From positions 229,231 to 293,230 of the forward strand of contig NZ_CAKJTI010000004.1 in assembly GCF_917563915.1 (NCBI RefSeq): a DNA stretch of 64,000 nucleotides, written 5' to 3'. Each line of letters begins with the position of its first letter. The first letter of the stretch is position 1. Origin of the DNA: Bacillus rhizoplanae. Its GTDB lineage: Bacteria > Bacillota > Bacilli > Bacillales > Bacillaceae_G. Under the pieces are notes generated by a model. It made no database searches. It was not told the DNA's origin and saw nothing but the letters and a program-made list of their open reading frames with translations. The translations under genes were made by a program, and so were the position numbers. Shown here in pieces: positions 1,011 through 60,392 of this stretch.

Positions 1011-1083
1011 TGCCCATAAAAGTCCGATTGGTTCAACTAACCTTCTGGGAAAAAAACGCTCCCAGAAGGAAGTTTCACTTTAT
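1011..1083 (-). repeat. bcr1 repeat, partial
   Basis: Contains the conserved GATTGGTTCAACTAA linker, a stem-loop with arms CCTTCTGGG/CCCAGAAGG and the terminal GTTTCACTTTAT. The other half of the element is reduced to TACTGCCC. It lies just past the terminator of the upstream minus-strand gene, in the same orientation. Confidence 0.8.
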
Positions 1084-1121
1084 GTCATTTTTTCAATTTG
1101 TATTTATATATATAATATAAT

Positions 1122-1153
1122 GAAAAGAGCCTTCTAGTAATCTAGAAGGCTCT
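1122..1153 (-). terminator. terminator of the SH3b-NlpC/P60 gene
   Basis: Perfect 12-bp inverted repeat AGAGCCTTCTAG/CTAGAAGGCTCT with a 4-base loop, followed on the minus strand by TTTTC, 12 bases after the stop codon. Confidence 0.85.
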
Positions 1154-1164
1154 AAAACTATCAA

Positions 1165-2673
1165 TTAATAAGGCTTAGAATATCCTAAGAAATGACTGCT
1201 CCAATATGAGTTGTTTAATGAAGCTACTTTAACGCCATTGTCACCGGCTTGAATAAATGTACCGCCGCCAAGGTAAATACCCATATGAGATGGACCAGAT
1301 TTATATGTGTTTTGGAAGTAGATTAAGTCGCCTGGCTGTGGGTTAGATGTATGTTGGAAGCTACTCCAATATCCAGCTACACTTGTACGGCTGATTGAAT
1401 AACCAAACTTCTTATATACGTGATAAATGAAACCACTGCAGTCAACGCCATTTGCAGAAGTGCCGCCCCATACGTATGGAACACCTTCCATTGATCTTGC
1501 GTATGAAAGTAGTGATGACATATCACCAGAGTTATTGCTTGTATTGTTGTTATTATTTCCATTATCCGGTTTTTCAGCTGGTTTATTTTCTTGTCCGCTG
1601 CTTACAGGTGTTTTAGATAAGTAGCGAGTGCCTACATATCCAGTGCGGCCATTATAGTTAATTTTGCTCCAGCCGTATTCGTCTGCAAGTACTTGTACTT
1701 TTTGTCCTTGTGGTAAGGCTCCGATTACACCGTAGTTTGAGCCAGCGCCGCTGCGTACATTTAGTGCGCTTGCATTAACGTAATATTCTCCGCTTCCTTG
1801 CGATGGAGTTTCATTGCTTGTTGCTGGCGGAGTAGGTGTAGAAGTGCCGTCTTTTACAAATTTCACAAATTCGCTGCTAACATAACCAATTTGTCCATTA
1901 TGCTTCACTTTGAACCAGCCATTTTCAGCGCCAATAACGTTTAACTTTTGTCCGTTTAATACGCCGCCAATGATACTGTTGTATGTAGCTGGGCCTGTAC
2001 GAACGCGTAAAGATGTTGCGTTTACAACGTAAGTACCGCCAGGTTGGACTGTAACATTGTTGTTATTATTTTGCTGTTGGTCATCCTGTGCAGCATCTGT
2101 ATTAGAGCCGCCTTTTGTTACATAATCTTTGCTAATGTAAGCTGTTTGTCCGCTGTAGTTAATTTTGAACCAATCTTGTACTTCGCCAACGACTTGTACA
2201 ACTTGTCCTTTATGTAGAGAACCTAACTGTGTATGTGATGTGCTAGGGCCTGTACGAACACGAAGGGAAGATACATTTACTGTATAGTTTCCACTTGCTG
2301 GTTGAACAGTTGTGTTATCGTTTGGTTTAGAAGGGGTATTCGTATTGCCCGCATTTACAAACTCACCGCTAACATAGCCGACTTTTCCATTGAGATTAAT
2401 TTTATACCAGCCATTTTCTTGTCCAATTACGTTTAGTGTTTGTCCTTCGTATACGCGAGACATGATGTCATTAGAAGTGCCAGGACCCGTACGAACGCGT
2501 AATACATCCGCGTTTACTGTGTACTTTGTTGTGTTTTGTGATGTTGCTTGAGCCGTTTGAGCTGTTTTTGCTGCAGGTTGTTGTACGGTTTCAGCTGCCT
2601 GAACCGTATCCATTGTCGGTGCTACAGCACCTGCAACAGATACTGCAGCAAGACCGGCAAGATATTTTTTCAT
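1165..2673 (-). CDS. secreted SH3b x4 - NlpC/P60 peptidoglycan endopeptidase
   Basis: Secreted cell-wall hydrolase of 502 residues. A signal peptide (MKKYLAGLAAVSVAG...) ends near residue 27. Four bacterial SH3 repeats follow (about 49-107, 128-186, 213-270, 296-352), each with the RVRTGP/NVRSG signature and joined by Asn/Gln/Pro-rich linkers. The C-terminal NlpC/P60 domain (about 384-502) has its catalytic Cys at 412 (GVDCSGF) and His at 463 (SHMGIYLG), so it should cleave D,L-peptide bonds in peptidoglycan stems. Architecture resembles B. cereus EntFM and related cell-wall proteins historically called enterotoxins, but with one more SH3b repeat. The RBS AAAGGA precedes the ATG. Paralogue identity is uncertain, so no symbol is given. 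Confidence 0.9.
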   Translation of the reverse strand: MKKYLAGLAAVSVAGAVAPTMDTVQAAETVQQPAAKTAQTAQATSQNTTKYTVNADVLRVRTGPGTSNDIMSRVYEGQTLNVIGQENGWYKINLNGKVGYVSGEFVNAGNTNTPSKPNDNTTVQPASGNYTVNVSSLRVRTGPSTSHTQLGSLHKGQVVQVVGEVQDWFKINYSGQTAYISKDYVTKGGSNTDAAQDDQQQNNNNNVTVQPGGTYVVNATSLRVRTGPATYNSIIGGVLNGQKLNVIGAENGWFKVKHNGQIGYVSSEFVKFVKDGTSTPTPPATSNETPSQGSGEYYVNASALNVRSGAGSNYGVIGALPQGQKVQVLADEYGWSKINYNGRTGYVGTRYLSKTPVSSGQENKPAEKPDNGNNNNNTSNNSGDMSSLLSYARSMEGVPYVWGGTSANGVDCSGFIYHVYKKFGYSISRTSVAGYWSSFQHTSNPQPGDLIYFQNTYKSGPSHMGIYLGGGTFIQAGDNGVKVASLNNSYWSSHFLGYSKPY

Positions 2674-2811
2674 AGTTTGTCGATTCCTTTCTGCCTGTAT
2701 TTTAAGGTAATGAAAAATTTACCAACTATAAAAATTCTAAAATGGTTGTCGATTGATGTCAATACTTATGAAGAAATCCGAATATCCTAAAAAGGGATAA
2801 CAAAAAAAAGA

Positions 2812-2838
2812 AAGGTGCAAAAATACACCTTTTTTTGG
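2812..2838 (-). terminator. terminator of dat
   Basis: Stem AAAGGTG/CACCTTT, with T runs on both sides. It lies about 50 bases after the dat stop codon on the minus strand. Confidence 0.7.
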
Positions 2839-5996: not shown

Positions 5997-6582
5997 CCAT
6001 TTCACCCTTTCTCTATCAGGCTTGGTCGATTTTTGAGAGAAACCTGCTAAAATAAAAAATACATAGTTTTCTTTGCCATGGATAGAGTTTTTTCTTTATA
6101 CATCTATATATGACTTGAACTATGCATACCCTTTTGTTTTCCTGTCATTTTGTATTGTTCCATAAGAACAAAGCCATTTTGTATTATACAACAAAATTTG
6201 GCTATTAGGAACACACTCGCATCTTACATTTTTTGTCTTTTTTTCCATTATAGCTGACAGTGAAAACTTTAACATTGGTTTATATGCTCGTCAACTAGAA
6301 AATATAACAAATATGGGAAAGAGTCCGTAGAAACGAGGACTTTTTATATTGAGAAAAATTTAAAAATCAGCACCAAACACTTGTTCTTTTCCGCTTGTTT
6401 GTTATAATAAGAATGCATGATAAGTAACGTTGCCAAGCTAGAATCTACATTATATTGTATGTGTGTGAAGTTTGCTTATGTTGTAAAAGAATTCGGCATA
6501 ATAGAAATAAAGTAAAATTTCCATCAGTGGGTGTCTTACTGCCCGCGAATAGCGGGATAAAAGAATAACAAGGGGAGATTTC
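5997..6582. other. divergent intergenic region ltaS / DUF1232 gene
   Basis: About 590 bases. It must contain the ltaS promoter on the minus strand. On the plus strand TTGTTC and TATAAT around 6385-6410 form a plausible promoter for the DUF1232 gene. A short bcr1 derivative sits at 6507-6561. No gene seen. Confidence 0.5.
6507..6561 (+). repeat. bcr1, internally deleted derivative (about 55 bp)
   Basis: ATAAAGTAAAATTTCCATCAG joined directly to the other end TTACTGCCCGCGAATAGCGGGATAAA. Both termini are kept and the middle is lost. It lies 21 bases before the next gene. Confidence 0.8.
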
Positions 6583-7579: not shown

Positions 7580-7845
7580 TTTATCCCGCATTAACGGGCA
7601 GTAAGACCCTCACCTCAAGATGCAGAGAGAACTAAGAAGGTAGGTGGGGGATAACTGCCCGTGCCCGATTGGTTCAACTAACCTTCTGGGAAAAAAAACG
7701 CTCCCAGAAGGAAGTTTCACTTTACCCCGCCCAAACAGCCGGTAAGAAGTTAGGCAAGGAAGAGAGCCAAACCGTCTGTAAGGGCCCGATTGGTTCAACT
7801 AACCTTCTGGGAAAAAAACGTTCCCAGAAGGAAGTTTCACTTTAT
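7580..7845 (-). repeat. two bcr1-type elements joined head-to-tail
   Basis: Element a (7580-7725) has the usual TTTATCCCGCATTAACGGGC end and the CACCTC...GGTGGGGG arms. Element b (7721-7845) shares TTTAC with it and has a different left part (CCCGCCCAAACAGCCGG ... CCGTCTGTAAGG) but the same right part. Both point the same way and lie 37 bases past the doxX stop, co-oriented with doxX. Confidence 0.85.
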
Positions 7846-9046: not shown

Positions 9047-9394
9047 TTTATCCCGCTATTTGTAGGCAGTAAGACTCCCACCTCAAGATGCAGAGAAAAG
9101 CAAAGAAGATAGGTGAGGGATGAAGAAAATCCCACTGATGAAAGTTTTACTTTATCCCGCCCAAACAGCCGGTAAGAAGTTAGGCAAGGAAGAGAGCCAA
9201 ACCGTCTGTAAGGACCCGATTGGTTCAACTAACCCTCTGGGGAAAAACGCTCCCAGAAGGAAGTTTCACTTTATCCCGCCCAAACAGCCGGTAAGAAGTT
9301 AGGCAAGGAAGAGAGCCAAACCGTCTGTAAGGGCCCGATTGGTTCAACTAATCCTCAACGAGAAAACCATTCGTTGATGAGAGTTTCACTTTAT
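9047..9394 (-). repeat. three bcr1-type elements fused in tandem
   Basis: Element 1 (9047-9155) is a standard but truncated bcr1. Elements 2 (9151-9274) and 3 (9270-9394) are the variant with AAACAGCCGGTAAGAAG and CCGTCTGTAAGG. Neighbours share one TTTAT at each junction (9151-9155, 9270-9274). All have the same orientation. Confidence 0.85.
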
Positions 9395-9630: not shown

Positions 9631-11292
9631 ATGAGCACATGGACACAAGTTTATGATCCGCTAGGTAACATTTGGCTTTCGGCAGCAGTTGCAATGATTC
9701 CAATTGTATTTTTCTTCTTAGCGCTAACAGTTTTTCGTATGAAAGGCTACGTTGCAGGGTTCATTACAGTTTTATTAACAGTTATAATTGCACTTTTTGT
9801 TTATAAAATGCCATTTACGATGGCGATAGCAGCAACGGGCTATGGGTTTGCTTATGGATTATGGCCAATTGCGTGGATTATTATCATGTCAGTATTTTTA
9901 TACAAAATCTCAGTAAAAACGGGACAGTTCGATGTCATTCGTGCATCTGTTCTTTCTATTACAAATGATCATCGTCTACTTGTCATTTTAATCGGCTTCT
10001 CATTCGGTGCATTTTTGGAAGGAGCAGCTGGATTTGGAGCACCAGTAGCAATTACAGCAGCGCTTCTTGCAGGACTTGGTTTAAACCCGTTATACGCAGC
10101 GGGGCTTTGCTTAATTGCAAATACAGCACCGGTAGCATTCGGAGCGATGGGTATTCCAATTTTAGTAGCGGGTCAAGTAACAGGTATTGATCCTCATAAA
10201 ATAGGAGAAATGGCTGGACATCAATTACCGCTTCTATCATTATTTGTTCCATTCTTTATTGTATTCTTAATGGATGGATTAAAAGGTGTAAAACAAACGT
10301 GGCCTGCATTACTTGTAGCAGGCGGTTCGTTCGGGATTACGCAGTTTATTACAGCAACATATCTTGGACCTGAACTCCCGGATATTACATCAGCACTAGT
10401 GAGCTTAGTGAGTTTAGCGCTATTCTTAAAAGTATGGCAGCCAAAAGAAATTTACCGTTCTGGAAAAGGACAAGCAGAAGCAGCGGCGACGGTAGATGCT
10501 GGTTCTACAATGAATTTAACAGCAGGAAAAGTTTTGAAAGCGTGGTCACCTTTTATTATCTTAACGATAATGGTTGTAATCTGGAGCCAAAAGTTCTTTA
10601 AAGCTTTATTTGCTCCAGGCGGTGCACTTGAAAGCTTAGTGTTTAAAATTCAAATTCCGGGTCTGCATAATTTAGTGATGAAGGCAGAGCCAATTGTTAA
10701 TAAACCAACACCATATGAAGCTATATTAAAGATTGATATTTTATCGGCAACAGGCACAGCAATTTTGATTGCATGTATTATCACAATGTTTGTTTTGAAA
10801 ATGAGTCCAAAACAAGCAGTGGTCACATTTAAAGAAACATTGCAAGAATTGAAAATGCCAATTTTATCGATTGGATTAGTACTTGGTTTTGCTTTTATGG
10901 CAAATTACTCAGGACTTTCATCGACATTGGCATTAGCGTTAGCAGGAACGGGGAAATTCTTCCCATTCTTCTCGCCATTCCTTGGATGGCTCGGGGTATT
11001 CTTAACAGGATCAGATACATCTGCAAACGCATTGTTCTCAAATCTACAAGCAATTACAGCGCAGCAAGTAGGCGTAAGCGAAGTATTGCTTGTTGCGGCG
11101 AATACAACGGGCGGTGTAACTGCTAAAATGATTTCACCGCAGTCCATTGCAATCGCATGTGCGGCAGTTGGACTTGCTGGGAAAGAATCGGACTTATTCC
11201 GTTTTACAGTGAAGCATAGTTTATTCTTCGTAACAATCATCGGTATTATCACATACATTCAAGCTTATTATTTAACTTGGATGATTCCTTAA
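9631..11292 (+). CDS. lctP: L-lactate permease
   Basis: Lactate/H+ symporter of the LctP family, 553 residues (family about 530-560) with 12 or more membrane helices. Family blocks are clear: [20 protein letters not shown], the region [13 protein letters not shown], and near the C-terminus [13 protein letters not shown] and [17 protein letters not shown]. The ATG follows AGAAGGGAAGAG. Its leader holds cre-like boxes and two palindromes. A terminator follows at once, so the gene is monocistronic. Confidence 0.96.
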
Positions 11293-11295
11293 TAG

Positions 11296-11332
11296 AAAAA
11301 GGGGTGTCTCTTATGATGAGATACCCCTTTTT
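11296..11332 (+). terminator. terminator of lctP
   Basis: 15-bp stem AAAAAGGGGTGTCTC/GAGATACCCCTTTTT with one G-T pair. It also works in reverse and may serve the convergent gene. Confidence 0.9.
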
Positions 11333-11345
11333 GTTATTTTTGATT

Positions 11346-12032
11346 TTAGCATGGAAGATGTACGGTTTTAACGTGATGTAAATTAAAATGAAAACGCTGA
11401 TTACGTGCTGTAATGAGTTCAATTTGGTTGTCGGTTACTTCAGCTAATTTGCCAATTTTAAAATTCTGTATGCCTAAATCAAGTAAAACGATATGTTGTT
11501 TTAGTTTTTTCATTTGCTCAGAAAATGTACGTGCAAGTGTAATCTTTGAAGCTGGTGATAAGAGTTTTTCATTTTCTAGTCCGTAAGGCGTTTCTGCTTC
11601 CTTATACGGAACGATATATTTTACGTGATGAAATGGGATGTATAACATTTGATAGACAGGTGAGAGGAAGATAAAATAGTCATTCATAATATGGGTAACA
11701 TATCCATGTAAGAAGTGTTCATGTGATAGCGCAAGTTCAATAAATTGTCCTTTTGCCACTTGCAATGTTTTTCGTAGTGAAATAGTGGATTCACTTGATA
11801 TTATGTCTGGCGGTAGTAAAGATTCTGGAATTGTTAGGTTATCAAATAATGAAGAATCGATGTTTGGGGTTAAATGTTGAATGTGTAAACTGGAGATATA
11901 CATGTACTTTTCTCCATCATACAATACAATAATGTCTGAGCCTTTATCAATCATAATCCCTTCAAATGGAAGAAGGTCCCCGGATAGTGTCACTTGTATG
12001 GGATGATTAATATATTTTTGTAAATGAAGCAT
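11346..12032 (-). CDS. DUF2642-like protein with repeated Sm-like fold
   Basis: 228-residue protein I recognise only at domain level. The N-terminal 60 residues (GDLLPFEGIMIDKGSDIIVL then YMYIS) have the pattern of DUF2642/CotB-type Sm-like modules; similar beta-rich units recur (about 90-145 and 175-228), suggesting an internal repeat. Such proteins are often spore-coat associated in Bacillus, which is inference here. ATG at 12032 follows AAAGGTG with six-base spacing; the upstream in-frame ATG at 12077 overlaps another ribosome binding site. It lies 66 bases after the ArsB-type gene on the same strand and may be cotranscribed. Confidence 0.7.
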   Translation of the reverse strand: MLHLQKYINHPIQVTLSGDLLPFEGIMIDKGSDIIVLYDGEKYMYISSLHIQHLTPNIDSSLFDNLTIPESLLPPDIISSESTISLRKTLQVAKGQFIELALSHEHFLHGYVTHIMNDYFIFLSPVYQMLYIPFHHVKYIVPYKEAETPYGLENEKLLSPASKITLARTFSEQMKKLKQHIVLLDLGIQNFKIGKLAEVTDNQIELITARNQRFHFNLHHVKTVHLPC

Positions 12033-12097
12033 AATAATCACCTTTCTTGTAATTACATAATCTCCTCCTTCTAACATAGTGGAAGGAGGGAGATGTT

Positions 12098-13459
12098 TTA
12101 GGGTGCGAAGATTAATTTAACCCAATAATATAAACATAGTAGTGTAAAAATGACGGTTGGCGGAATGACAAGGAATGTAGTTTTTATATAGGTACCCCAA
12201 CCGATAGTTACTTTTCCTTTTTTCACAATATACATCCACATTAAGCTTGCTAGTGTACCAATCGGGAGTAATAATGAACCCATGTCACTACCGATGATGT
12301 TTGCAAGATAAATGGTTTTCAATGTAATAGGATCTAGTCCCATTTCGGTGAGTTCAATTGTGCCAATCATTAAGGCAGGATGGTTATTAAAAATGTTAGA
12401 GAGGATAGAGATTAGGCCCCCCATAACAAAAGTGGCATGAAATAAACTATCAGCGACGAGTGGTTGAAATGTAGTGACGAGCAGTTTGGTTAAACCGATG
12501 TTATTAAGTCCATACACAATCACATACATAGAAAATGCGAAAATTAAGACGTACCAAGGGGTTTTTTTAATCATATCATGAGGTGGGATGCGCAGTTTGT
12601 ACCATCTCCACCCGAGTAAAATAACGGAGCCAATGACTGCTACAATGGCGATAGAAAACTGAAAGAAAGATGCGATAAATAAGCTGATGCGAACGCACAA
12701 AACAAATAATAGAATTCTAAGCATAAACTTTGTTCGCTTACGATTTTCATCAATTGCGGGACGTGGTTGCAGTGGGTGAAAGGATTTTTTAACGAAATTT
12801 TCATCTAAGTATGTCGACAAGACCGGGAGTTTTTCAGGGATTTTTTTCCGAAAAACAAGGAATAATAGAAACGACATAAAAAGGAGCCCTAACGTAGCGG
12901 GAACAAACATCATGGCTGTGTGCATGTATAAATCCATATCAATAATTCTCAGGGCGATTAAATTCACAATATTGCTTACACCAATCGGCGCGCTTGAGGC
13001 AGTGGCGATGAGTGCACCACTTAATAAGTAAGGTATTTTTTGATCATTTTTGAGTCGCAAATGGTGTAATAAAAGCAGTAAAATGGGAGTTGTAATTAAG
13101 ATGCTACCATCGTTATTGAAGAATAATGTCATGAGAAAACAAAGAAGATTTGTATACCAAAAGAGGCGAATACCAGAGCTTTTTGCTTTTTTAGCAAGTT
13201 GAACGGCGTACCAATAAAAAAAACCGAAACTCTCTAATACGATCGCCATAACAATGGTAGCCATAATTGTTATGGCGGCGCCCATAATCTTTGAGCTAAT
13301 ATCACCCAAGTCGGCAAGAGAAACTGTACCGCTTAAAATGACAATCACTGCACCAACTGTTGCTGGAATTGCTTCATTCATTCCTTTGGGACGCCAAAAG
13401 ATGATGAGCGTGGTTCCGAGAAAAGCGAGTATGGTTATTGTATATTGTAGGTTTATCAA
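12098..13459 (-). CDS. ArsB/NhaD-superfamily permease, copy 1
   Basis: Ion-transporter-superfamily membrane protein, about 453 residues with 11-12 helices. Signature parts: FFNNDGSILITTPILLLLL and ATASSAPIGVSNIVNLIAL, then a second half with NIFNNHPALMIGTIELTEMG and the LLPIGTLASLMW block. The superfamily includes arsenite efflux pumps and Na+/H+ antiporters; the ion cannot be told from sequence, and no arsR or arsC is nearby. Start: TTG at 13459 with AGGGGTG six bases upstream fits better than GTG at 13468. It is a close paralogue of the protein at 16248-17606. Confidence 0.85.
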   Translation of the reverse strand: MINLQYTITILAFLGTTLIIFWRPKGMNEAIPATVGAVIVILSGTVSLADLGDISSKIMGAAITIMATIVMAIVLESFGFFYWYAVQLAKKAKSSGIRLFWYTNLLCFLMTLFFNNDGSILITTPILLLLLHHLRLKNDQKIPYLLSGALIATASSAPIGVSNIVNLIALRIIDMDLYMHTAMMFVPATLGLLFMSFLLFLVFRKKIPEKLPVLSTYLDENFVKKSFHPLQPRPAIDENRKRTKFMLRILLFVLCVRISLFIASFFQFSIAIVAVIGSVILLGWRWYKLRIPPHDMIKKTPWYVLIFAFSMYVIVYGLNNIGLTKLLVTTFQPLVADSLFHATFVMGGLISILSNIFNNHPALMIGTIELTEMGLDPITLKTIYLANIIGSDMGSLLLPIGTLASLMWMYIVKKGKVTIGWGTYIKTTFLVIPPTVIFTLLCLYYWVKLIFAP

Positions 13460-13667
13460 CTCTTTCACCCCTGTTCTTATAGTGAAAAGTTCGCATAAGA
13501 CATACGTCCTGCACTGGCTTATATTCTATATGTATGAAGTGTGGGTTCGGCTTGTACTAAGTGAAATACCCATTTTTTGAATAAGGAAAAGAAATGATAT
13601 AAATACCTTTGCATTTTTTAGACAATGATGTATGATAAGAGCGTAGTGAAAATTTAATCAGTGATAA

Positions 13668-13766
13668 ACTAGGGGTGCCCAAGAGAGCTGGGCTGAGAGG
13701 GAAGCGTGTTGAAGCTTCTTAACCCTTTGGACCTGATCTGGTTCGTACCAGCGGAGGGAAGTTAAC
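13668..13766 (+). ncRNA. TPP (thi-box) riboswitch
   Basis: All conserved pieces are present in order: AGGGGTGCCC, GCTGAGAGG, AACCCTTTGGACCTGATCTGG and ACCAGCGGAGGGAAG. These form the pyrimidine and pyrophosphate sensing helices of the TPP aptamer. It is followed 27 bases later by a terminator, so thiamine diphosphate should switch thiC off by transcription termination. Confidence 0.97.
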
Positions 13767-13792
13767 GGCTTTACATAACAATGCCTTATGTT

Positions 13793-17606: not shown

Positions 17607-18026
17607 AGCTAGCCTGCCCTTCTTGATTCTTGAATTTGAACAAGAATATTTCGACTTGTCCACGACTTTCTAATTAATCATATTCATATTCTTAAAAGAA
17701 GGTATGGGACATTACACTAACTATTGTAAATATGTGCGTTTGGTGCTTTGAGGAAAAGACATAGTATATAGGGAATTCTAAATGAAAATAGGCACATATC
17801 CAGTATGTGCCTATTAGGTATTTATAATAGAAAGGTTGTTACATGCATCTACCTAGTTTTCTTTTGGTAGGTAGATGTGGATGAAAATATGCTACTTATT
17901 TCGTGGTAGATGATGTTTGACTAAGAATTTTGTTATCAGTATGGGTATTTGTAATGCTGTCTGTAAGAGCCCGATTGGTTCAACTAATCCTCAACGAGAA
18001 AATCGTTCGTTGGGGAAAGTTTCACT
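17607..18026. other. gene-free stretch with two hairpins
   Basis: Contains the promoter region of the permease, hairpin 17788-17814 (ATAGGCACATA/TATGTGCCTAT), hairpin 17846-17877 (CATCTACCTA/TAGGTAGATG) and a partial bcr1. No ORF with an RBS. Confidence 0.5.
17788..17814 (-). terminator. likely cydAB terminator, displaced
   Basis: Perfect 11-bp stem with a 5-base loop; TTTCATTT follows on the minus strand. It is the first terminator-like structure of clear quality past cydB, about 210 bases away, with a bcr1 copy in between. Confidence 0.5.
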
Positions 18027-18030
18027 TTAC
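17957..18030 (-). repeat. bcr1-type element, partial, abutting the cydB stop
   Basis: Variant with TCTGTAAGAGCCCGATTGG, a stem TCCCCAACGA/TCGTTGAGGA and the end GTTTCACTTTAC. The TAA stop of cydB is bases 2-4 of the element's GTAAA end. Confidence 0.8.
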
Positions 18031-19046
18031 TTTAAAAAAGTTCTATCTTTCAAGAATAAGTTCCAGAAGAAGATGAAGCCTGGTAATAGTATTGCGATAC
18101 CGACTGCATAGAGAATGAGTAGCGCATAAAACGTTTCTTTCGTTGTAAAACTTGTGAATACAGTTACTTCTGGATAAATAATATACGGAAGGTGTGCAAC
18201 GCCGTAAGCGTAGCTTGCAAATCCATACTGGGCAACGACAGAAAGAACAGCAATGCGTGGCCAGCCAAGTGTTTCATGTTTTTGACTTGTCCACCAAAGG
18301 GAAGAATAGCCAATGATAAAAAAGATGATCGAGATTGTAAACCATTTGAATTGTTTAATTAATCCTTCCATGAGCCAATGTGTTTCAGGTTCCATTACGA
18401 CAAGTGCAATGATGGCGGTGACAAGCGTTGCAGGACCGAGCACGATGGCGTTTCTCCGGTAGACACGATATGTATCTTCGGACCCTTGTTCTCTAGCAAA
18501 ATCAGCCAGAAAGAGTGCTGATAAAAAGAGTTCTGATGTTAAACCAAAGAGCATGTACCAGTATACGACTGGACTTGATAATAATTTTCCATATAATAAC
18601 GTTTCTTTGCCGCCGGCAGTGGTAATGAAGGCTCCTTCTGTTACAGGAAGAACTGTAATTAAGAGAGCTGGAATTAATAGACCAGTAATGCCCGAAATAA
18701 CACGCATTAGATACTGGTACTTTGGCAAGGAATAAGAAAACACCATAAAAGTACTACGAATTGTAACGAGTATGAGAATTAAGGTAACAGGTAAAAACAT
18801 TGCGGTTGCGAGTGTAAATGCAGCTTTTGGAAAGAAGCCGAGAAACGCAACAACGACAAAGACTAGAAATGTATTCGTAACTTCCCATGTTGGGGATAAA
18901 TAGCGATTAGCGAGTTTTCCAGCAAGTGTTGGGTGCTTTGCATACACCATTCCCCAAAAGCCGGCACCGAAATCAATTGAGCCTAAAATACTGTATACAA
19001 AGACGACAGCCCAGAGAATGATAATAGCAATGCTTGCTTCAGGCAT
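18027..19046 (-). CDS. cydB: cytochrome bd quinol oxidase subunit II
   Basis: Membrane subunit of the high-affinity terminal oxidase, 339 residues with eight or more helices. Seen: the AVVFVYSILGSIDFGAGFWG start typical of CydB and the R-Y-L-S-P-T-W-E-V-T-N-T-F block. The start overlaps the end of cydA by 8 bases, so translation is coupled. The stop codon lies in the end of a bcr1 copy. cydC and cydD do not follow. Confidence 0.95.
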   Translation of the reverse strand: MPEASIAIIILWAVVFVYSILGSIDFGAGFWGMVYAKHPTLAGKLANRYLSPTWEVTNTFLVFVVVAFLGFFPKAAFTLATAMFLPVTLILILVTIRSTFMVFSYSLPKYQYLMRVISGITGLLIPALLITVLPVTEGAFITTAGGKETLLYGKLLSSPVVYWYMLFGLTSELFLSALFLADFAREQGSEDTYRVYRRNAIVLGPATLVTAIIALVVMEPETHWLMEGLIKQFKWFTISIIFFIIGYSSLWWTSQKHETLGWPRIAVLSVVAQYGFASYAYGVAHLPYIIYPEVTVFTSFTTKETFYALLILYAVGIAILLPGFIFFWNLFLKDRTFLK

Positions 19047-20900: not shown

Positions 20901-20908
20901 ATTATGAT

Positions 20909-21006
20909 GGCTAGTGAACCAATCGGGCTTTTACGGGCAGTTATCCCCCACCTCAAAATTCGGAGAAAAGCAAAGAAAACCCCCACTGATGGAGGTTTCA
21001 CTTTAT
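20909..21006 (-). repeat. bcr1, truncated
   Basis: Has GAACCAATCGGGCTTTTACGG, CCCCCACCTC and the end GTTTCACTTTAT. Co-oriented with and 15 bases past the speD stop. Confidence 0.8.
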
Positions 21007-21020: not shown

Positions 21021-21392
21021 TTAGTTAATAGCGGTGATTTCGCCTAAGCCGCGAGTCAACCGTTTTATATATAATTGCTTCGGATTGAGTATAGGCAATA
21101 TATAATCGATAGCTTGTTGCGGGTCTACCTTTGTTCCACACGTATAGCAGTCAATAGCTGCAAACTGTTTTTCTGGATACGTATGAATAGAGATGTGGCT
21201 TTCCGATAGTAAAACTAATATTGTAACTCCAGATGGTTCGAATGTTTTGGAGTCTACTGATAATACAGTTGCACCGCACATATTGGCTGCCATGACTAAA
21301 TGTTGTTGTAAGAATTCACGATCATTTAATAAGGAAGTGTCTACCTCCCACATATCTACTATTATATGTCTTCCAAATGTTGAATACTCCAT
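21021..21392 (-). CDS. speD: S-adenosylmethionine decarboxylase proenzyme
   Basis: Pyruvoyl enzyme giving decarboxylated SAM, the aminopropyl donor for spermidine. 123 residues, the short bacterial class. The self-processing motif LLSESHISIHTYPE is intact, with cleavage expected between Glu64 and Ser65, and the catalytic Cys pair lies in D-C-Y-T-C-G. AGGAGG precedes the ATG. It follows speE by 24 bases, so the two form an operon. Confidence 0.95.
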   Translation of the reverse strand: MEYSTFGRHIIVDMWEVDTSLLNDREFLQQHLVMAANMCGATVLSVDSKTFEPSGVTILVLLSESHISIHTYPEKQFAAIDCYTCGTKVDPQQAIDYILPILNPKQLYIKRLTRGLGEITAIN

Positions 21393-22736: not shown

Positions 22737-22829
22737 ATATCGGCGGAAGTGGTGCATTTATCGGCGCTATTTGAGATATATCGGCGGAAGTGGTGCATTT
22801 ATCGGCGTTATTTGTAATATATCGGCGCT
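22737..22829 (+). repeat. 41-bp direct tandem repeat
   Basis: Units start ATATCGGCGGAAGTGG at 22737 and 22778, with a partial third at 22819. The two full units differ at few positions. Each holds TATCGGCG twice. Confidence 0.8.
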
Positions 22830-22951: not shown

Positions 22952-23107
22952 CTTATCCCGCATTAACGGGCAGTAAGACCCCCACCTCAAGATTCAGAGA
23001 AAAGCGAAGAAGATAGGTGGGGGAAACTGCCCGTAAAAGCCCGATTGGTTCAACTAATCATCAGTGGGGGATAAAAAAAACCCCCACTGATGGAAGTTTC
23101 ACTTTAT
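22952..23107 (-). repeat. bcr1, full length (about 155 bp)
   Basis: Complete reference copy in this window: TTATCCCGCATTAACGGGC, CCCCCACCTC...AGGTGGGGG arms, GCCCGATTGGTTCAACTAA, hairpin ATCAGTGGGGG/CCCCCACTGAT, GTTTCACTTTAT. The chrA stop codon TAA is bases 2-4 of its ATAAA end. Confidence 0.92.
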
Positions 23108-24294: not shown

Positions 24295-24531
24295 AATGAC
24301 GTAAATTCCCCTTCTTTTTTGATGAACGTTTTCTTCTATCATATCGAATGTATGTAAATAAGAACATCGATAGAGTGTAATAAATGTGTAAATTTGCATA
24401 CACTGCGAGTATCGTTTTATGGAAGTTGTAATCTATTAAAAATTCGGGTGAGGTAGTCAAAGAAACAAGCGTATTTAGAATGGAGTGAGTATTGTATCAT
24501 ATCAGCTTTATAGAAGGAGGTGATTAAAAGA

Positions 24532-24989: not shown

Positions 24990-25023
24990 TTTATAAAGTG
25001 AAACTTCCATCAGTGGGGGGGGG
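24990..25023 (+). repeat. bcr1 fragment
   Basis: ATAAAGTGAAACTTCCATCAG then a G run; only the first arm is left. Co-oriented with and past the terminator of the CHRD gene. Confidence 0.75.
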
Positions 25024-28634: not shown

Positions 28635-28645
28635 CAAGATATTTT

Positions 28646-33383: not shown

Positions 33384-33404
33384 TGATATACGCCCCTATC
33401 TTTG

Positions 33405-39421: not shown

Positions 39422-39957
39422 ATTCTTGTTTGGTGTCCTCTTTGCTAATACAGTGCAGCTCAAATATTCTGGAATTTTTTTCACTTTTGGATACACACGA
39501 AATCCTTTCGGCCACTCTAACTACAATAAAGTGAAACTTCCATCAGTGGGGGTTTTCTTCCTCCCCCACTGATGGAAAGCTCTCACCAATCGGGCTTTTA
39601 CGGGCAGTTATCCCCCGCCTATCTTCTTCGCTTTTCTCTGAATTTTAAGGTGGGGGCTTACGGCCCGTTGATGCGGGATAAATCTTAAGTGCATTTTCTC
39701 AACGTGGATTGTAAATTTTTTAGAAGGTTTTTAAGAAATTAAGAAAGAATACGTTCATCACCATTAAGTGCAATTGGAAAATTGATGATTATGTAGGTAG
39801 AAAAATAATACGTTAATAAGTCGGGAAATTCAGATAAACATGAAGGTAGATTTTCTATTACATGTTCATCATTCCATCAACTACAAATTATAGGATGGAT
39901 TGAAGAATAACATATTTGCATGAAAATGGTAATTGAAAATTAAAAAGGGGGCCTGTT
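39422..39957. other. gene-free region after comFC
   Basis: About 535 bases: a full bcr1 (39526-39682) and an AT-rich leader of the next gene. No clear comFC terminator except the bcr1 hairpin. No gene seen. Confidence 0.55.
39526..39682 (+). repeat. bcr1, full length (157 bp)
   Basis: Intact: ATAAAGTGAAACTTCC, 13-bp hairpin CCATCAGTGGGGG/CCCCCACTGATGG, CACCAATCGGGC, inverted arms CCCCCGCCTATC...AAGGTGGGGG, and CCCGTTGATGCGGGATAAA. Carries the AAAGCTCTCACC linker variant. Confidence 0.93.
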
Positions 39958-41953: not shown

Positions 41954-42008
41954 ATAAAGTGAAACTTCCATCAGTGGGGGGTCTTACTGCCCGTTAATGC
42001 GGGATAAA
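41954..42008 (+). repeat. bcr1, internally deleted (55 bp)
   Basis: ATAAAGTGAAACTTCCATCAG joined to TCTTACTGCCCGTTAATGCGGGATAAA; both ends kept. Confidence 0.85.
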
Positions 42009-42821: not shown

Positions 42822-42888
42822 AGGTTATCGGGAACTTTCTGATAGCCGTTTTTGAGTCGTATATTGTAAACTCGCCAATAAATTGATG

Positions 42889-43147
42889 TTATCCCGCTAT
42901 TCGTGGACAGTAAGACCCCCGCCTTAAGATTTAGAGAAAAGCGAAGAAGATGAGTGGGGGCGTTTTCATGAGGACGCGTTTGGCCGATTGTTGTCATAGA
43001 TATAAAACAAGTGTTACAATTGTCAGTAGGTTTATCCTTTTTTAAGGAAAAGAATCCTATTTTTTAGCAAGGAAATGAGATTGAGTATTATAGCGACCAA
43101 TCAGTGAAAAGAGCAATAACGAATAACACTGATGGAAGTTTTATTTT
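42889..43147 (-). repeat. bcr1 remnants upstream of secA
   Basis: Left part 42889-42961 (TTATCCCGCTATTCGTGGAC, CCCCGCCTTAAG, GAGTGGGGG); right part 43095-43147 (GACCAATCAGTG, CACTGATGGAAGTTTTATTTTA). About 130 unrelated bases lie between. The right end stops about 8 bases before the secA RBS. Confidence 0.65.
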
Positions 43148-45813: not shown

Positions 45814-45857
45814 ATAAAGTGAAGTGGGTTCTTACTGCCCGCAAATAGCGGGATAAA
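45814..45857 (+). repeat. bcr1, internally deleted (44 bp)
   Basis: ATAAAGTGAAGTGGG joined to TTACTGCCCGCAAATAGCGGGATAAA; past the secA terminator and before prfB. Confidence 0.8.
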
Positions 45858-45894: not shown

Positions 45895-46996
45895 ATGGAA
45901 TTAGTAGAAATTAGGCAAGAACTAGAGAAAATGGCTAAGAGATTAGCGGCTTTTAGGGGGTCTCTTTGACCTCGCTGGAAAAGAAAAGCGAATTGCAGAA
46001 TTAGAAGAAATTATGATGGGTGCAAGCTTTTGGGATGATCAAAAAAGTGCACAAACAGTCATCAATGAAGCAAATGCATTAAAAGACATGGCTGGTAAGT
46101 TTAATACGCTTAACGAAACGTTTGAAAATCTAGAAGTAACGCATGAACTTGTGAAAGAAGAATACGATGAAGAATTACATGCGGAGCTTGAAGCTGAAGT
46201 GAAAATTTTATCTGCAGATATGAACGAATACGAACTTCAATTATTACTAAATGAAGAACACGACAAGAATAATGCTATTTTAGAGTTGCATCCAGGTGCA
46301 GGTGGAACAGAATCACAGGATTGGGGTTCTATGCTGCTTCGTATGTATACACGCTGGGCAGAAAAACGCGGCTTTAAAGTAGAAACGTTAGATTATCTTC
46401 CTGGAGATGAAGCTGGGATTAAAAGCGTTACGTTATTAATTAAAGGACATAATGCTTACGGTTATTTAAAAGCAGAAAAAGGCGTGCATCGTCTTGTTCG
46501 TATTTCGCCATTCGATTCATCTGGCCGTCGTCATACATCGTTCGTATCTTGTGAAGTTGTACCAGAGTTTAACGATGATATTGAAATTGAAATACGTACA
46601 GAGGATTTAAAAATAGATACGTACCGTGCAAGTGGTGCGGGTGGACAGCATATTAATACGACTGACTCAGCTGTACGTATTACACATATTCCAACAAATG
46701 TTGTGGTAACATGTCAATCTGAGCGTTCACAAATTAAAAACCGTGAGCATGCAATGAAAATGTTGAAAGCGAAACTGTACCAACAAAAATTAGAAGAACA
46801 ACAAGCGGAGCTTGATGAAATTCGCGGTGAACAAAAAGAAATTGGCTGGGGAAGCCAAATTCGTTCATACGTATTCCATCCATACTCCCTTGTAAAAGAT
46901 CACCGTACAAATACAGAGGTCGGGAATGTTCAAGCGGTTATGGACGGAGAGATTGACGCATTTATTGATGCGTATTTACGTTCTCGTATTTCATAA
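45895..46996 (+). CDS. prfB: peptide chain release factor 2 (programmed +1 frameshift)
   Basis: RF2 releases peptides at UGA and UAA. The gene is read as 45895-45966 joined to 45968-46996, 366 residues. The first 24 codons end ...FRGSL before an in-frame TGA; ribosomes shift +1 at CTT-TGA-C and continue [16 protein letters not shown]. Stop-recognition [10 protein letters not shown] contains S-P-F, and the catalytic GGQ is in [28 protein letters not shown]. The TAA stop is bases 2-4 of the ATAAA of a following bcr1 copy. Autoregulated through the frameshift. Confidence 0.98.
45955..45970 (+). promoter_or_regulatory. RF2 programmed frameshift site
   Basis: Internal Shine-Dalgarno AGGGGG, three bases, then CTTTGAC: the conserved bacterial RF2 recoding signal. 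Confidence 0.98.
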
Positions 46997-47146
46997 AGTG
47001 AAACTTCCATCAGTGGGAGGGGCTTATTCCCCACTGATGGTTAGTCGAACCAATCGGGCTCTTATGGGCAGTTATCTCTCGCCTATCTTCTTTGATTTCT
47101 TAAAATCTTGAGGTGGGAGTCTTATTGCCCGTTAGGGCGGGATAAA
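46993..47146 (+). repeat. bcr1, full length (154 bp) plus stub
   Basis: Intact copy with GTTAGTCGAACCAATCGGGC linker and 3' end TTATTGCCCGTTAGGGCGGGATAAA. A second copy begins within the final ATAAA (47142) but ends after CTTCCATCAGTATG, a stub of about 22 bases. Confidence 0.92.
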
Positions 47147-47572
47147 GTGAAACTTCCATCAGTATGAAAAAATGCCAACAGGTTGTTGGCACATGCGTGA
47201 GGCGATGAGGAGTATACCTTCTGTCTAGAGGGAGAGAAAGAGGAGAGAAGTTGCGAGGCAACTTCTCTTTTTGGTGGATGTAGTTGTAGCATACAAGCTT
47301 GTATATTGTTTTGTAAAAAGTAGAAAATAACAAAATGTTGGAAGTAATTGATCAGAAGAATGGGATGATTTTCGTATTCTGTATGCTAGGAAAATTCGTT
47401 GTTTTGCATCATATCATTCGTTCACAAAATTGAAACAATTACTGAAAAGCATTACGCCTGTAAGTGTCCCTTCTTGTTTAGGGTAATATTGGTTATGCAG
47501 GTAAGTTTTGAAATTGCAGGGAAATCATTATAATGCTATTGAGGGATTAATTAACAGCAGGGAGCGATATAG
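46997..47572. other. gene-free region prfB / cccB
   Basis: bcr1 and stub, a perfect small hairpin TGCCAACA/TGTTGGCA (47171-47189), the prfB terminator, and the cccB leader. No gene. Confidence 0.55.
47245..47272 (+). terminator. terminator of prfB, displaced by bcr1
   Basis: 10-bp stem GAGAAGTTGC/GCAACTTCTC, five T; now about 250 bases past the stop. Confidence 0.85.
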
Positions 47573-50020: not shown

Positions 50021-50051
50021 AAAGGCATCGCACAATGTGTGATGCCTTTTC
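50021..50051 (+). terminator. terminator of ftsEX
   Basis: AAAGGCATC-CACA/TGTG-GATGCCTTT with an internal G-T pair. Confidence 0.8.
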
Positions 50052-50088
50052 ATACACCATTGTGTGTTCCGGAAAGGGGAATTCCGCA

Positions 50089-51522
50089 TTGAAACGTAGA
50101 GTTGCGATTATTGGAATGATTGTTGCGTTTTTAGTTGGCGCTGGCGGAATGTTTGCAGGTATGTATTGGCTTGAAAATGGCTCTTACACAGTGCAATCAA
50201 TTACAGGGAATAATGCCAATGTAAAACAAGCGGATTTGGATAAAATTCGCGAAGCGTATGCACTAATTGATTCACGTTATGTTGAGGATGTGAAAGATGA
50301 CAAGCTTGTTGAAGGAGCTATTCAAGGGATGCTTGCAACACTGAAAGATCCATACTCTACATACATGGATAAGAAAACAGCAACGCAATTTGAGCAATCG
50401 CTTGATCCAGAGTTAGAAGGAATTGGTGCTGAAGTAAATAAAACGGATGATAAGTTAATGATTGTTTCGCCGATTAAAGATTCTCCAGCAGAAAAGGCTG
50501 GTCTTAAACCGAACGATCAAATTTTAACAGTCGATGGAAATAGTGTGAAAGACTTATCCCGCGAAGAAGCAGTTATGAAAATTCGAGGAAAGAAAGGAAC
50601 AACGGTTACGCTTGAGGTAAAACGTTCCGGAGTTAGTGATCCGTTAACATTTAAAATTAAGCGTGATAAAATTCCGATTTTCACTGTATTTAGCTCTGTG
50701 AAGCAAGAGAATGGGAAAGATATTGGATATATGCAAATCACATCATTCTCTGAAAAAACAGCGAACGAGTTTAAAGATCAATTGAAAGATCTTGAAAAGA
50801 AAAATATACAAGGACTTGTTATTGATGTGCGTGGAAATCCAGGTGGTTATTTAACGAGTGTTGAAGATATTTTAAAAGTGCTGATGACAGACCAAAAGCC
50901 AATGCTTCAAATAGAACAACGTAATGGTGAAAAGCAAAAGTTCTACACATCATTAAAAGAGAAGAAACCATATCCGATTTCTGTATTAGTCGATAAAGGC
51001 AGCGCATCTGCTTCTGAAATTTTAGCAGGGGCTTTAAATGAAGGAGAAGGTTATCCTCTTATTGGTGAGAAAACGTTTGGTAAAGGTACTGTTCAGCAAG
51101 CTGTACCGTTTACGGATGGTAGTAATATTAAACTGACGATGTTTAAATGGTTAACACCGGACGGCAATTGGATTCATAAAAAAGGAATTGAACCGACGGT
51201 CGAGGTGAAGCAGCCTGATTACTACTATGCAACGCCAATTCAAATTGAAAAAACGTTGTCTTACAATGATAATGATGAGCAAGTGAAGCATGCGCAAGAG
51301 ATGTTGAAGAGTCTTGGATATGAGCCAGGACGTGAAGATGGCTATTTTAGTAAAGAAACAGAAGCAGCTGTGAAAGCATTCCAAAATGCAAACGATATGG
51401 ATGCAACGGGTCAGCTTGATAAAAAGACAGCAGAAGCAATCCAAAACAAAATCGTTGAAAAAATTCGTTCTGGTGAAAACGATCTGCAGCTACAAACAGC
51501 CTTAAAATTAATGGCGAAATAA
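50089..51522 (+). CDS. ctpB: carboxy-terminal processing protease CtpB
   Basis: Membrane-anchored S41 serine protease, 477 residues. N-terminal helix (about 4-26), PDZ domain (about 95-175: EGIGAEVNKTDDKLMIVSP, DSPAEKAGLKPNDQIL), protease core with Ser in DKGSASASEILAGAL and Lys in GEKTFGKGTVQQ, and a C-terminal peptidoglycan-binding domain (about 395-460). In B. subtilis CtpB cleaves SpoIVFA to fire sigma-K. TTG start at 50089 nine bases after AGGGG. Its stop lies in bcr1's ATAAA. Confidence 0.94.
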   Translation: MKRRVAIIGMIVAFLVGAGGMFAGMYWLENGSYTVQSITGNNANVKQADLDKIREAYALIDSRYVEDVKDDKLVEGAIQGMLATLKDPYSTYMDKKTATQFEQSLDPELEGIGAEVNKTDDKLMIVSPIKDSPAEKAGLKPNDQILTVDGNSVKDLSREEAVMKIRGKKGTTVTLEVKRSGVSDPLTFKIKRDKIPIFTVFSSVKQENGKDIGYMQITSFSEKTANEFKDQLKDLEKKNIQGLVIDVRGNPGGYLTSVEDILKVLMTDQKPMLQIEQRNGEKQKFYTSLKEKKPYPISVLVDKGSASASEILAGALNEGEGYPLIGEKTFGKGTVQQAVPFTDGSNIKLTMFKWLTPDGNWIHKKGIEPTVEVKQPDYYYATPIQIEKTLSYNDNDEQVKHAQEMLKSLGYEPGREDGYFSKETEAAVKAFQNANDMDATGQLDKKTAEAIQNKIVEKIRSGENDLQLQTALKLMAK

Positions 51523-51640
51523 AGTGAAACTTCCATTTGGAGATGCTTTTTCTCCAAATGGTTAGTTGAACCAATCGGGCATTTACGGACAGTTTTCAGT
51601 TGTCTCTATCTATCTTCGAATGGGACTTTATTTCACTGGT
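51519..51640 (+). repeat. bcr1, diverged
   Basis: ATAAAGTGAAACTTCC, hairpin CCATTTGGAG/CTCCAAATGG (fully re-sequenced but still paired), GTTAGTTGAACCAATCGGGC, then a degraded right part. Between the ctpB stop and its terminator. Confidence 0.85.
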
Positions 51641-51825
51641 GAAAGGTAAAAAAATATACAGGCTTACGTAGCCTGTATATTTTTTTTATGTGTTAAACAA
51701 ACGTTTGATTAATTGTGATAAGATAAAATAAAACTGGGGGTATATCCTACATAATGGCAATTAAGTTCTTGTAGGCAGGAAATCGTACTGCTCATTAAGT
51801 GCGGCAGAAATGAAATATATTACAA
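51523..51825. other. gene-free region ctpB / minJ
   Basis: bcr1, ctpB terminator and minJ leader; no gene. Confidence 0.6.
51652..51687 (+). terminator. terminator of ctpB
   Basis: 12-bp stem AAATATACAGGC/GCCTGTATATTT, long T run. Confidence 0.92.
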
Positions 51826-55216: not shown

Positions 55217-55373
55217 TTTATCCCGCTATTCGCGGGCAGTAAGACCCCCACCTCAAGATTGAGAGAGAAGCGAAGAAGCTAGGTGGGGGATAACAGCTGG
55301 CATGCGCCCGATTGGTGAGAGCTTTCCATCAGTGGGGGATGAAGGAACCCCACTAATGGAAGTTTCACTTTAT
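55217..55373 (-). repeat. bcr1, full length (157 bp)
   Basis: TTTATCCCGCTATTCGCGGGC, CCCCCACCTC...AGGTGGGGG, CGCCCGATTGGTGAGAGCTT, CCATCAGTGGGGG, GTTTCACTTTAT. Antisense to the next gene, ending about 25 bases before its RBS. Confidence 0.92.
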
Positions 55374-58400: not shown

Positions 58401-58597
58401 AATTAATTCGTTTACTTGATGAGGGTGGTCAACTTTATGTATGTGGAGATGGAAGTCGAATGGCTCCAGATGTAGAGAGAGTTTTATGTGAAAACTACCA
58501 AATTCATCATGGTGTTGATGAGCAGAAAGCGAAAGACTGGCTTGATCATTTGCAATCCGAAGGAAGATATGCAAAGGATGTTTGGGCAGGTATATAA
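55418..58597 (+). CDS. CYP102A-type P450-reductase fusion
   Basis: Self-sufficient fatty acid hydroxylase of the P450 BM3 kind, 1059 residues. Haem domain (about 1-470) with I-helix AGHETTSG, ExxR N-E-T-L-R and haem ligand Cys403 in [10 protein letters not shown]; flavodoxin-like FMN domain (about 490-635, [13 protein letters not shown]); FAD domain (YYSISSSP with serine-rich FAD site) and NADPH domain ([12 protein letters not shown] ... [13 protein letters not shown]). ATG at 55418 after AGGAAAGGA. In B. subtilis and B. megaterium a TetR repressor controls the orthologues; here a LysR gene is nearest. Confidence 0.96.
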
Positions 58598-58911
58598 ATT
58601 TTATTTTTTAATTTGATGGTGATGTGGCGGTAGCTCATTAATTGGGATAAGATAAATATCGTAAAAAACCTAGTTATTCATTTATGTGTTCTTCATATTG
58701 GATAGCTAGGTTTTTTATTTGTTTCCTTAAGTTGATAGCGATACTCCAAAAAGAAAAAATCGGTGCCGTGTCCCTACAACCTGGCTTTGCACACATCTAT
58801 GCTGAACTCCATGTTAAAATTAACAAGCAGGATTACTTGATTAAAGTTTTACTTTAGGTTTATATACTATAGTATAGACAAAGTAACATACATAGAAAGG
58901 AACGATGAAAT
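58598..58911. other. gene-free region CYP102 / gnd
   Basis: CYP102 terminator, a bcr1 trace GATTAAAGTTTTACTTTA (58838-58855), and a perfect palindrome TATACTATAGTATA (58863-58876) within the presumed gnd promoter. Confidence 0.5.
58663..58716 (+). terminator. terminator of CYP102 gene
   Basis: AAAAACCTAG/CTAGGTTTTT with ATA extension and a large loop. Confidence 0.7.
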
Positions 58912-60321
58912 ATGCCAAAGCAACAAATTGGAGTTGTTGGTGTGGGCGTTATGGGAAAAAGCCTCGCACTTAACTTTGAGAGTAAAGGGTATTCTGTTGC
59001 CCTATATGATATTTCAAAGGAAAAAGTAAATGAAATCATTGAGGAAAACCGTGGTAAAAACTTAGTTGGTACTCATATGGTTGAAGAGTTTGTTAACTCA
59101 CTTGAATCACCTAGAAAGATTTTATTAATGGTTAATGCAGGAGAAATTACAGATAAGGCAATTGATTCTCTGCTTCCTCACCTCGATAAAGGTGATATTT
59201 TAATTGACGGTGGTAATACATACTTTGGCGATACAATTCGCCGAAACAAACGTCTTGCTGAAGAAGGAATCAATTTCATTGGTGCAGGTGTGTCAGGCGG
59301 AGAAGAGGGCGCATTGAAAGGGCCGTCTATTATGCCGGGCGGACAGAAAGATGCATATGAAAAAGTGAAGGATATGCTTGAAAACATCTCTGCGAAAGTG
59401 AATGGCGAGCCTTGCTGTTCTTATATCGGACCTGATGGAGCAGGCCACTATGTAAAGATGGTTCACAATGGTATTGAGTATGGAGATATGCAATTAATTT
59501 GTGAAGCATATTTCTTCTTGAAACAAACACTTGATTTGACTGCAGAAGAGTTTCACGAAATATTTGCTGAATGGAATAAGGGCGAACTGAACAGCTACCT
59601 AATCGAGATTACAGCAGATATATTCACGAAGAAAGATGAAGAAACTGGAAAGCCGTTAGTGGATGTTATTCTTGATACTGCGGGACAAAAGGGTACAGGG
59701 AAATGGACAAGCCAAAGCGCGCTTGATTTAGGTATATCTCTCCCTATTATCACGGAATCTGTATTTGCACGTTGTATTTCTGCTTTAAAAGAAGAGCGTG
59801 TGAACGCAAGCAAAGTATTATCTGGCCCTAAAGATAAACCAGCACTTGGAATTGAAAAAGCAGAATTAATTGAAGCAGTGCGTCAAGCTTTATATATGAG
59901 TAAAATTTGTTCTTATGCGCAAGGATTTACGCAATTGAAGGCAGCTTCTGAGGAGTATGACTGGAACCTTGATTTCGGCAGCATTTCTATGCTTTGGAGA
60001 GGTGGATGCATTATTCGTGCAGCCTTTTTACAAAACATTAAAGAGGCTTATGACAATAACACTGACTTACCGAACCTTTTACTTGACCCATATTTTAAAG
60101 AAATTGTGGAGTCATACCAAGGCGGATTACGTCAAATTATCTCATTAGCTGTACAACAAGGTATTCCGGTACCTGCATTTTCAGCGGCGATTTCTTACTA
60201 TGACAGCTATCGTACGGCAACACTGCCTGCAAATCTGCTACAAGCGCAGCGCGATTATTTCGGAGCACATACGTATAAACGAGTGGATAAAGAAGGTACA
60301 TTCCATACAAAATGGATATAA
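58912..60321 (+). CDS. gnd: 6-phosphogluconate dehydrogenase (decarboxylating)
   Basis: Third step of the oxidative pentose phosphate pathway, giving ribulose-5-P, CO2 and NADPH. 469 residues. NADP motif [13 protein letters not shown], substrate blocks [34 protein letters not shown] with catalytic Lys, and C-terminal [24 protein letters not shown] before ATG. Convergent with the cyclase gene and zwf. Confidence 0.97.
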
Positions 60322-60326
60322 GATAA

Positions 60327-60362
60327 AAAATGGACCAAGGTTTCAATCTTGGTCCATTTTTT
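60327..60362. terminator. terminator of gnd
   Basis: 13-bp stem AAAATGGACCAAG/CTTGGTCCATTTT; runs into a mini-bcr1. May serve both strands. Confidence 0.9.
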
Positions 60363-60392
60363 ATCCCGCATTAACGGGTAGTTTCACTTTAT
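60360..60392 (-). repeat. minimal bcr1 derivative (33 bp)
   Basis: TTTATCCCGCATTAACGGG joined to TAGTTTCACTTTAT; both ends with nothing between. The stop of the cyclase gene is in its ATAAA. Confidence 0.85.

Follow-up and report, generated by a model that had tools for sequence, protein, structure and literature searches.

Orientation of a bcr1-type hairpin repeat in Bacillus rhizoplanae and related genomes relative to replication forks, genes and stop codons

A short repeat ending in TTTAT/ATAAA recurs throughout a 64,000-nt stretch of Bacillus rhizoplanae (assembly GCF_917563915.1, contig NZ_CAKJTI010000004.1, positions 229,231 to 293,230; hereafter the window, meaning the whole stretch of DNA that was analysed). 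A preliminary description had counted about 21 loci, 14 of them downstream of the preceding gene and in its orientation, and had proposed a role in mRNA 3' ends or insertion linked to transcription. The question raised by this locus is what sets the direction of the copies. The answer favoured here, to which we give a probability of about two in three, is that they are copies of a non-autonomous mobile element of bcr1 type whose insertion proceeds through single-stranded DNA. Insertion would take place next to a TTTAT that is single-stranded at the replication fork and would have a fixed polarity, with TTTAT 5' of the left end, as in IS200/IS605-type elements; direction would be set by the strand bearing TTTAT and by the fork, leaving gene-relative orientation largely a by-product.

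Below, R denotes the ATAAAGTGAAAC-first reading of the repeat and F its complement, TTTATCCCGC-first, and strands given with coordinates are those of R. A covariance model built from 11 window copies gave 20 matches in the window at E<=0.01. Adjoining copies in head-to-tail arrays have one pentamer in common, and the array members beyond the one per array listed by the model were recovered by motif search and a DNA profile (7580-7845, 9047-9394). Model matches and array members together bore out the roughly 21 loci and their directions, some loci being weak pieces (24993, 45814). The repeat ends in TTTAT/ATAAA on both sides, contains two hairpins and is about 155 nt in full length, with a shorter form of about 125 nt. 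RNA folds of one copy gave z of -6.0 and -6.5 for the two strands, and DNA folds of another gave -7.3 and -7.7, with both end pentamers unpaired beside the hairpins. At least one two-sided change was present in 8 of the 14 predicted pairs in the alignment of the 11 window copies, and internally deleted copies (6507, 41954, 60360) retain both ends. By DNA folds and inspection, hairpins lie near both ends and long terminal inverted repeats are absent, as expected of IS200/IS605 derivatives. The repeat also corresponds to the description of bcr1 in being about 150 nt long, hairpin-forming, intergenic and multicopy, with TTTAT at both ends. A scan of the window for Rfam-type RNA families at gathering scores left it unmatched, the sole match being a TPP riboswitch elsewhere (RF00059, 74.9 bits, 13661-13776, plus strand), upstream of thiC.

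In related single-contig genomes, match strands occurred in blocks along the chromosome. With the origin placed at dnaA, the terminus assumed opposite and head-to-tail matches collapsed, R ran against the fork in 188 of 250 matches from eight genomes (p=6e-16; 34 of the 52 G002 matches used), or in 200 of 268 with all 52 G002 matches. These counts and those by genome are among the matches listed; matches of G313 and G360 on other contigs were excluded, and the lengths of G183, G096, G253, G083 and G313 were rounded. The proportion reached 89-90% in G343 (34/38), G183 (35/39) and G253 (8/9); it was 15/20 in G313, 27/37 in G360, 44/62 in G096, 7/11 (64%) in G083 and 18/34 or 30/52 (53-58%) in G002, and the bias was significant on its own in six of the eight genomes.

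Genes and elements were then considered jointly in 80 and subsequently 40 fetched genome stretches, with genes called by a codon-usage open reading frame (ORF) caller and elements located by the profile. Fork direction was taken from GC skew in five multi-contig genomes and agreed with the dnaA-based direction in 28 of the 30 stretches for which both were known. Among the fetched units, R was against the fork in 17/20 for G343, 16/19 for G360, 40/53 for G347, 22/31 for G397, 31/49 for G259, 14/23 for G237 and 7/17 for G002. The 275 elements, those of the window included, formed 264 units, of which 254 were used (7 at edges and 3 inside genes were dropped), and the null set comprised all 4736 intergenic ATAAA sites lying outside elements. 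In the joint model of these units and sites, the fork was the largest orientation factor, with an odds ratio (OR) of 3.15 (2.32-4.28), or 3.36 without the window. For G343, G360 and G347 together the fork OR was 6.03 and the stop-touching effect was absent (1.22), as against 2.30 and 3.66, respectively, in the remaining genomes. In most of the genomes tested, the TTTAT-CCCGC...GTTTCACTTTAT strand (F) is thus found preferentially on the lagging-strand template.

The insertion site itself could be read at one clean locus, where an element in a repeated sequence of G002 (L116, 7569-7722) was compared with three uninterrupted copies, two from G002 and one from G001. The filled copy has a pentamer on each side and the three empty copies all have a single ATAAA. 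Other flank comparisons, being diverged, having the element in both members or being array artefacts, were not counted.

How far genes contribute was judged first within the window. The 14 of 21 loci proposed to follow the preceding gene were roughly reproduced as 13 of 19 units once arrays were joined; the 19 profile units do not include 6507, 45814 and 60360, which fall below the profile cut-off, and they count 20905-21006 as two units, one beside a doubtful short ORF. Convergent gaps always score as same and divergent gaps always as opposite, so that orientation is testable in tandem gaps alone, and there 8 same versus 3 opposite units (binomial p ~0.23) gave no bias above chance. Six units touch the stop codon of the preceding gene (17956, 22953, 31403, 35139, 46993 and 51519).

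Copies were intergenic: for 195 of 200, any overlap with a called gene was at most 20 nt. Outside the window, the first set gave 53 same and 39 opposite units in tandem gaps versus 1011 and 827 null sites (Fisher p=0.67), and 43 convergent and 37 divergent units versus 452 and 924 (p=2e-4); with the window included, 35 of 195 units touched a stop codon versus 207 of 3338 null sites (p=5e-8). The crude tandem test thus showed no bias; fork and gene directions counteract each other there, and the joint model was therefore relied on. It gave an OR of 2.89 (95% confidence interval 1.94-4.31) for a stop-touching ATAAA, mildly favoured convergent gaps (OR 1.52, 1.01-2.29) and, with the fork allowed for, an OR of 1.74 (1.17-2.58) for same versus opposite gene direction in tandem gaps. 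Thus, of the bias sought after correction for available ATAAA sites, the crude tandem part vanished, whereas the stop-touching excess and the co-orientation persisted; the gene-linked share of orientation is real.

Stop-touching ATAAA sites were filled about three times as often as other sites, beyond availability. Among 104 units with an intact end and a co-directional gene, 23 take the TAA of the ATAAA itself as stop and 7 its last A; the null counterpart is 189 and 42, respectively, among 2157 sites, and TAA accounts for 1443 of 2185 called stops. Where the gene ran against the fork, 21 stop-touching sites were filled versus 71 empty, and where it ran with the fork, 20 versus 209. An ATAAA at a stop provides a pentamer pointing along the gene, and a copy inserted there is therefore co-directional and leaves the TAA intact; copies at stops point along the gene because TAA stops often sit inside the ATAAA landing site. 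Such copies would keep the stop codon, leave promoters undisturbed and persist as passengers in the 3' untranslated region (3'-UTR). Low cost and, in a minority, gene truncation are likely reasons for the excess at stops. As a general cause of stop-touching copies truncation was rejected, only 5 units supplying a stop in their own frame versus 23 on the TAA of the ATAAA, so that it applies to a minority at most. The residual co-orientation (OR ~1.7) perhaps reflects greater harm from the opposite orientation between co-transcribed genes.

The co-orientation along the whole gap, together with the stop-touching excess, is also what would be expected if a mobile element entered the strand exposed by RNA polymerase, the transcription-linked insertion of the preliminary description. 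We consider this quite unlikely, as copies lie mostly against the gene where fork and gene conflict: in leading-strand tandem gaps, stop-touching sites aside, the direction against the gene had 57 copies and 965 empty sites, and the direction along it 33 copies and 1062 empty sites.

The same two observations could point instead to a functional 3'-UTR module, that is, a repeat retained downstream of genes and along them whose hairpins act in mRNA by protection, processing or termination. Copies are intergenic and enriched at stops and mildly in convergent gaps, and many should therefore be transcribed as 3'-UTR. In the parts of one report available to us, RNA-seq of two B. cereus strains placed 84 of 165 and 62 of 155 bcr copies, all 18 families taken together, within mRNAs (PMC3446304). 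The two-sided changes in the hairpins, and terminator-like motifs inside full copies (19/183 read as R versus 5/183 read as F), are in keeping with such a role. So is a full short-form window copy at 31403-31529 (plus), whose ATAAA has the last A of the mnaA stop (31401-31403) in common and which is followed by a terminator-like hairpin and T-run at ~31530-31565, placing it between stop and terminator. Tests for an RNA signature were null. Co-orientation was not confined to the stop side (OR 2.12 beyond 100 nt from the stop, 1.68 within 100 nt), and stem energy was no better at stop-touching copies (p=0.66). On the sense strand, G-T showed no excess over A-C, with counts of 15 and 14, respectively, among co-directional copies and of 35 and 25 among all copies. 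Strict terminators followed 12 of 41 stop-touching copies versus 74 of 264 stop-touching empty sites, with no difference; an apparent association from 45-nt folds (0.640, n=25, versus 0.414, n=70 sampled null sites) disappeared under this strict definition. Moreover, among bcr repeats, mRNA decay is correlated with bcr3 alone in the sections consulted of the same report (PMC3446304). A role in mRNA 3' ends is thus compatible with the placement of the copies, but as their main cause it is improbable, the fork being the larger factor.

Insertion through single-stranded DNA has its own difficulties, and the following points weigh against it. The filled copy at the clean site has TTTAC in place of TTTAT as its left pentamer, so that the polarity is tentative. 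Fork bias was not significant in two of the eight genomes (G002 and G083, among the matches listed), in the fetched units of G001 (18/33) or in the window (10 of 19 against, with the fork taken from GC skew, which was above zero in 15 of the 16 4-kb bins). The position of the terminus was assumed and GC skew stood in for the fork in the five multi-contig genomes. The residual gene-orientation effect (OR 1.74) is left without explanation by this route. No Y1_Tnp gene bracketed by both ends (at most one mismatch each) was found at 39 loci, from 56 matches in the 12 genomes searched, and G343, among the most fork-biased genomes, had no Y1_Tnp match. Finally, the bias showed no trend along the model bit score (44/61, 40/61, 45/61).

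The last point speaks for a further alternative, in which insertion is unbiased and the fork pattern arises afterwards, through selection or because one orientation is lost, as by hairpin deletion on the lagging template, where hairpins are known to be deletion-prone. With full-length copies ranked by identity to the nearest sister copy, from low to high, 36/61, 45/61 and 48/61 ran against the fork (low versus high, p=0.03), and partial copies did so in 56 of 92. The bias is thus strongest in copies with close sisters, and both strands of the folded copies fold about equally, so that hairpin deletion should favour neither orientation; this origin of the pattern is accordingly judged a poor candidate.

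The search for an enzyme yielded little around Y1 genes, where the profile matched only two whole copies nearby (L148 and L169). Among profile matches in 2.43 Mb, no copy was split by 150-4000 nt, as an autonomous partner might be. End-motif pairs with up to two mismatches occurred in 13 of the 39 Y1 loci and around the gene in 10, and were rejected as candidates, none remaining at one mismatch or less; four such pairs were inspected (L165, L170, L194 and L201), of which those at L194 and L201 lay inside a longer repeated unit.

The individual window copies illustrate the range of forms and positions. On the minus strand, a partial copy comprising the ATAAAGTGAAAC half (1004-1083) lies 81 nt past the stop of the minus gene 1165-2673; the latter encodes a wall hydrolase resembling EntFM/CwpFM, under the family cut-off (582.6 vs 720 bits). 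A two-copy head-to-tail array with the common pentamer TTTAC spans 7580-7845 (minus; 7580-7725 in the model) and a three-copy one 9047-9394 (minus; 9151-9274 in the model). The partial copy at 17956-18030 (minus) supplies the TAA stop of minus gene 18027-19046, and the TAA stop of chrA (23104-24399) lies within the ATAAA of the full copy at 22952-23107 (minus). Near this chrA-side copy, two tandem 41-bp units occupy 22737-22818. A rearranged copy with pieces on both strands (20905-21006, minus) lies 14 nt past the stop of speD (21021-21392). On the plus strand, the copy at 35139-35232 has the last A of the stop in common with a MarR/HxlR-like gene (34816-35139); the full copy at 46993-47162 provides the TAA stop of 46013-46996 and runs, through a common ATAAA, into the initial bases of another copy; and the copy with a variant stem 1 at 51519-51650 provides the TAA stop of 50035-51522. 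A full copy at 39526-39682 (plus) lies 104 nt past the stop of 38714-39421.

Divergent genes flank a 55-nt internally deleted copy with both ends present (6507-6561, plus; model and motif), a 63-nt remnant in which stem 1 is bordered by two similar ends (27493-27555, minus) and the copy at 33404-33525 (plus; model and profile). Flanking genes run opposite to a nearly full copy at 28643-28784 (minus; plus genes), a partial copy comprising the GCGGGATAAA half at 42888-42960 (minus) and a full copy at 55217-55373 (minus; plus genes). The remaining loci are a second 55-nt internally deleted copy with both ends (41954-42008, plus), a short and weak end piece at 24993-25026 (plus, E 0.036), another weak end piece at 45814-45857 (plus, E 0.039) and a 33-nt minimal remnant with both ends at 60360-60392 (minus), which supplies the TAA stop of minus gene 60389-61051. 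NCBIfam supported speD, chrA, mnaA/wecB, galE and a cytochrome bd subunit beside 'cydB'; doxX, CHRD, comFC, csp, secA, prfB, ctpB and cyclase are gene names from the preliminary description.

The host range of the repeat extends beyond the B. cereus group, to Priestia, Bacillus sp. FJAT-14578 and Pseudalkalibacillus. One window copy, with two candidates scored per genome, matched 99 of 397 genomes (order of Bacillus sp. FJAT-14578) at E<=1e-8. The covariance model at E<=0.01 found at least 84 matches in Bacillus sp. FJAT-14578 and at least 52 in Priestia abyssalis, these being lower bounds from 150 candidates scored per genome, and none in Geobacillus thermodenitrificans. Among plasmids, one window copy at E<=1e-5 matched solely a Pseudalkalibacillus hwajinpoensis plasmid, and a second copy at E<=1 matched this plasmid again, two Peribacillus records and one Klebsiella record. 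The last, Klebsiella grimontii pNY3A (L192, CP079755.1, 221561-221624), carries a piece with 80.9% identity over 44% of the query, which may be foreign DNA or stem from a mixed record. B. cereus group plasmids gave no match in the plasmid collection, whose content of such plasmids is uncounted. Two further forms were seen: a further size class, spanning about 205-222 nt and suggestive of a form longer by 60 nt, among the matches listed for G001, G002, G183, G237 and G096, and head-to-tail arrays with a unit of ~153 nt at L180 of G343 (~10973-12514).

In the available portions of three reports, bcr1 (group A, bcr1-bcr3) of the B. cereus group is a repeat of about 150 nt with a TTTAT motif and a stem-loop, in high copy, intergenic and often in UTRs (PMC6542083, PMC2267715, PMC3446304). 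The window repeat is alike in length, TTTAT, hairpin, copy number and placement, a likeness by description and not by sequence. It differs in that bcr1 is described as B. cereus group-specific, whereas the window repeat has a wider host range, including the Pseudalkalibacillus hwajinpoensis plasmid, and a lagging-strand orientation. IS200/IS605 family members such as IS608 and ISDra2 have subterminal hairpins, a T-rich pentamer at the left end and a preference for the lagging-strand template, as outlined in part in PMC6006769, and the consulted part of another paper gives TTGAT, ATTAT and TTTAT as targets behind which group A IStrons insert (PMC4227781). By analogy, the repeat may work like an IS200/IS605-type element, with which it shares subterminal hairpins, a T-rich left pentamer, the lagging-strand template bias and, at the one clean site, a lone pentamer in the empty copies, although it is not claimed to be one: it has the same pentamer at both ends, none of the 39 loci revealed a Y1 transposase flanked by such ends, and Y1_Tnp had no match in G343. 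REP/REPIN sequences with TnpA-REP are likewise numerous short intergenic hairpin repeats, tied to HUH enzymes according to the excerpts of PMC6006769 and PMC3733652; unlike them, the repeat has no GTAG tag on inspection, a two-hairpin unit of ~155 nt and one fixed target pentamer. A literature search joining bcr1, the lagging strand and Bacillus found nothing, the primary bcr1 papers, where an earlier report is possible, lying outside it; the portions consulted of the literature covering bcr1 and IS605 in Bacillus draw no link between the two.

How bcr1 repeats move is left open in the literature as far as it was available here, and a fork-set bias points to a single-stranded-DNA route that can be tested. 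These findings also give a warning that 'downstream and along the gene' patterns of small repeats may arise largely from the fork and from pentamers supplied by TAA stops, without any RNA function. Only tentatively may the repeats be regarded as an order-wide class of mobile elements that target the lagging strand and move through single-stranded DNA by means of a still-unfound enzyme other than the resident Y1 transposase; their wide host range offers many genomes in which the mobilising enzyme can be sought.

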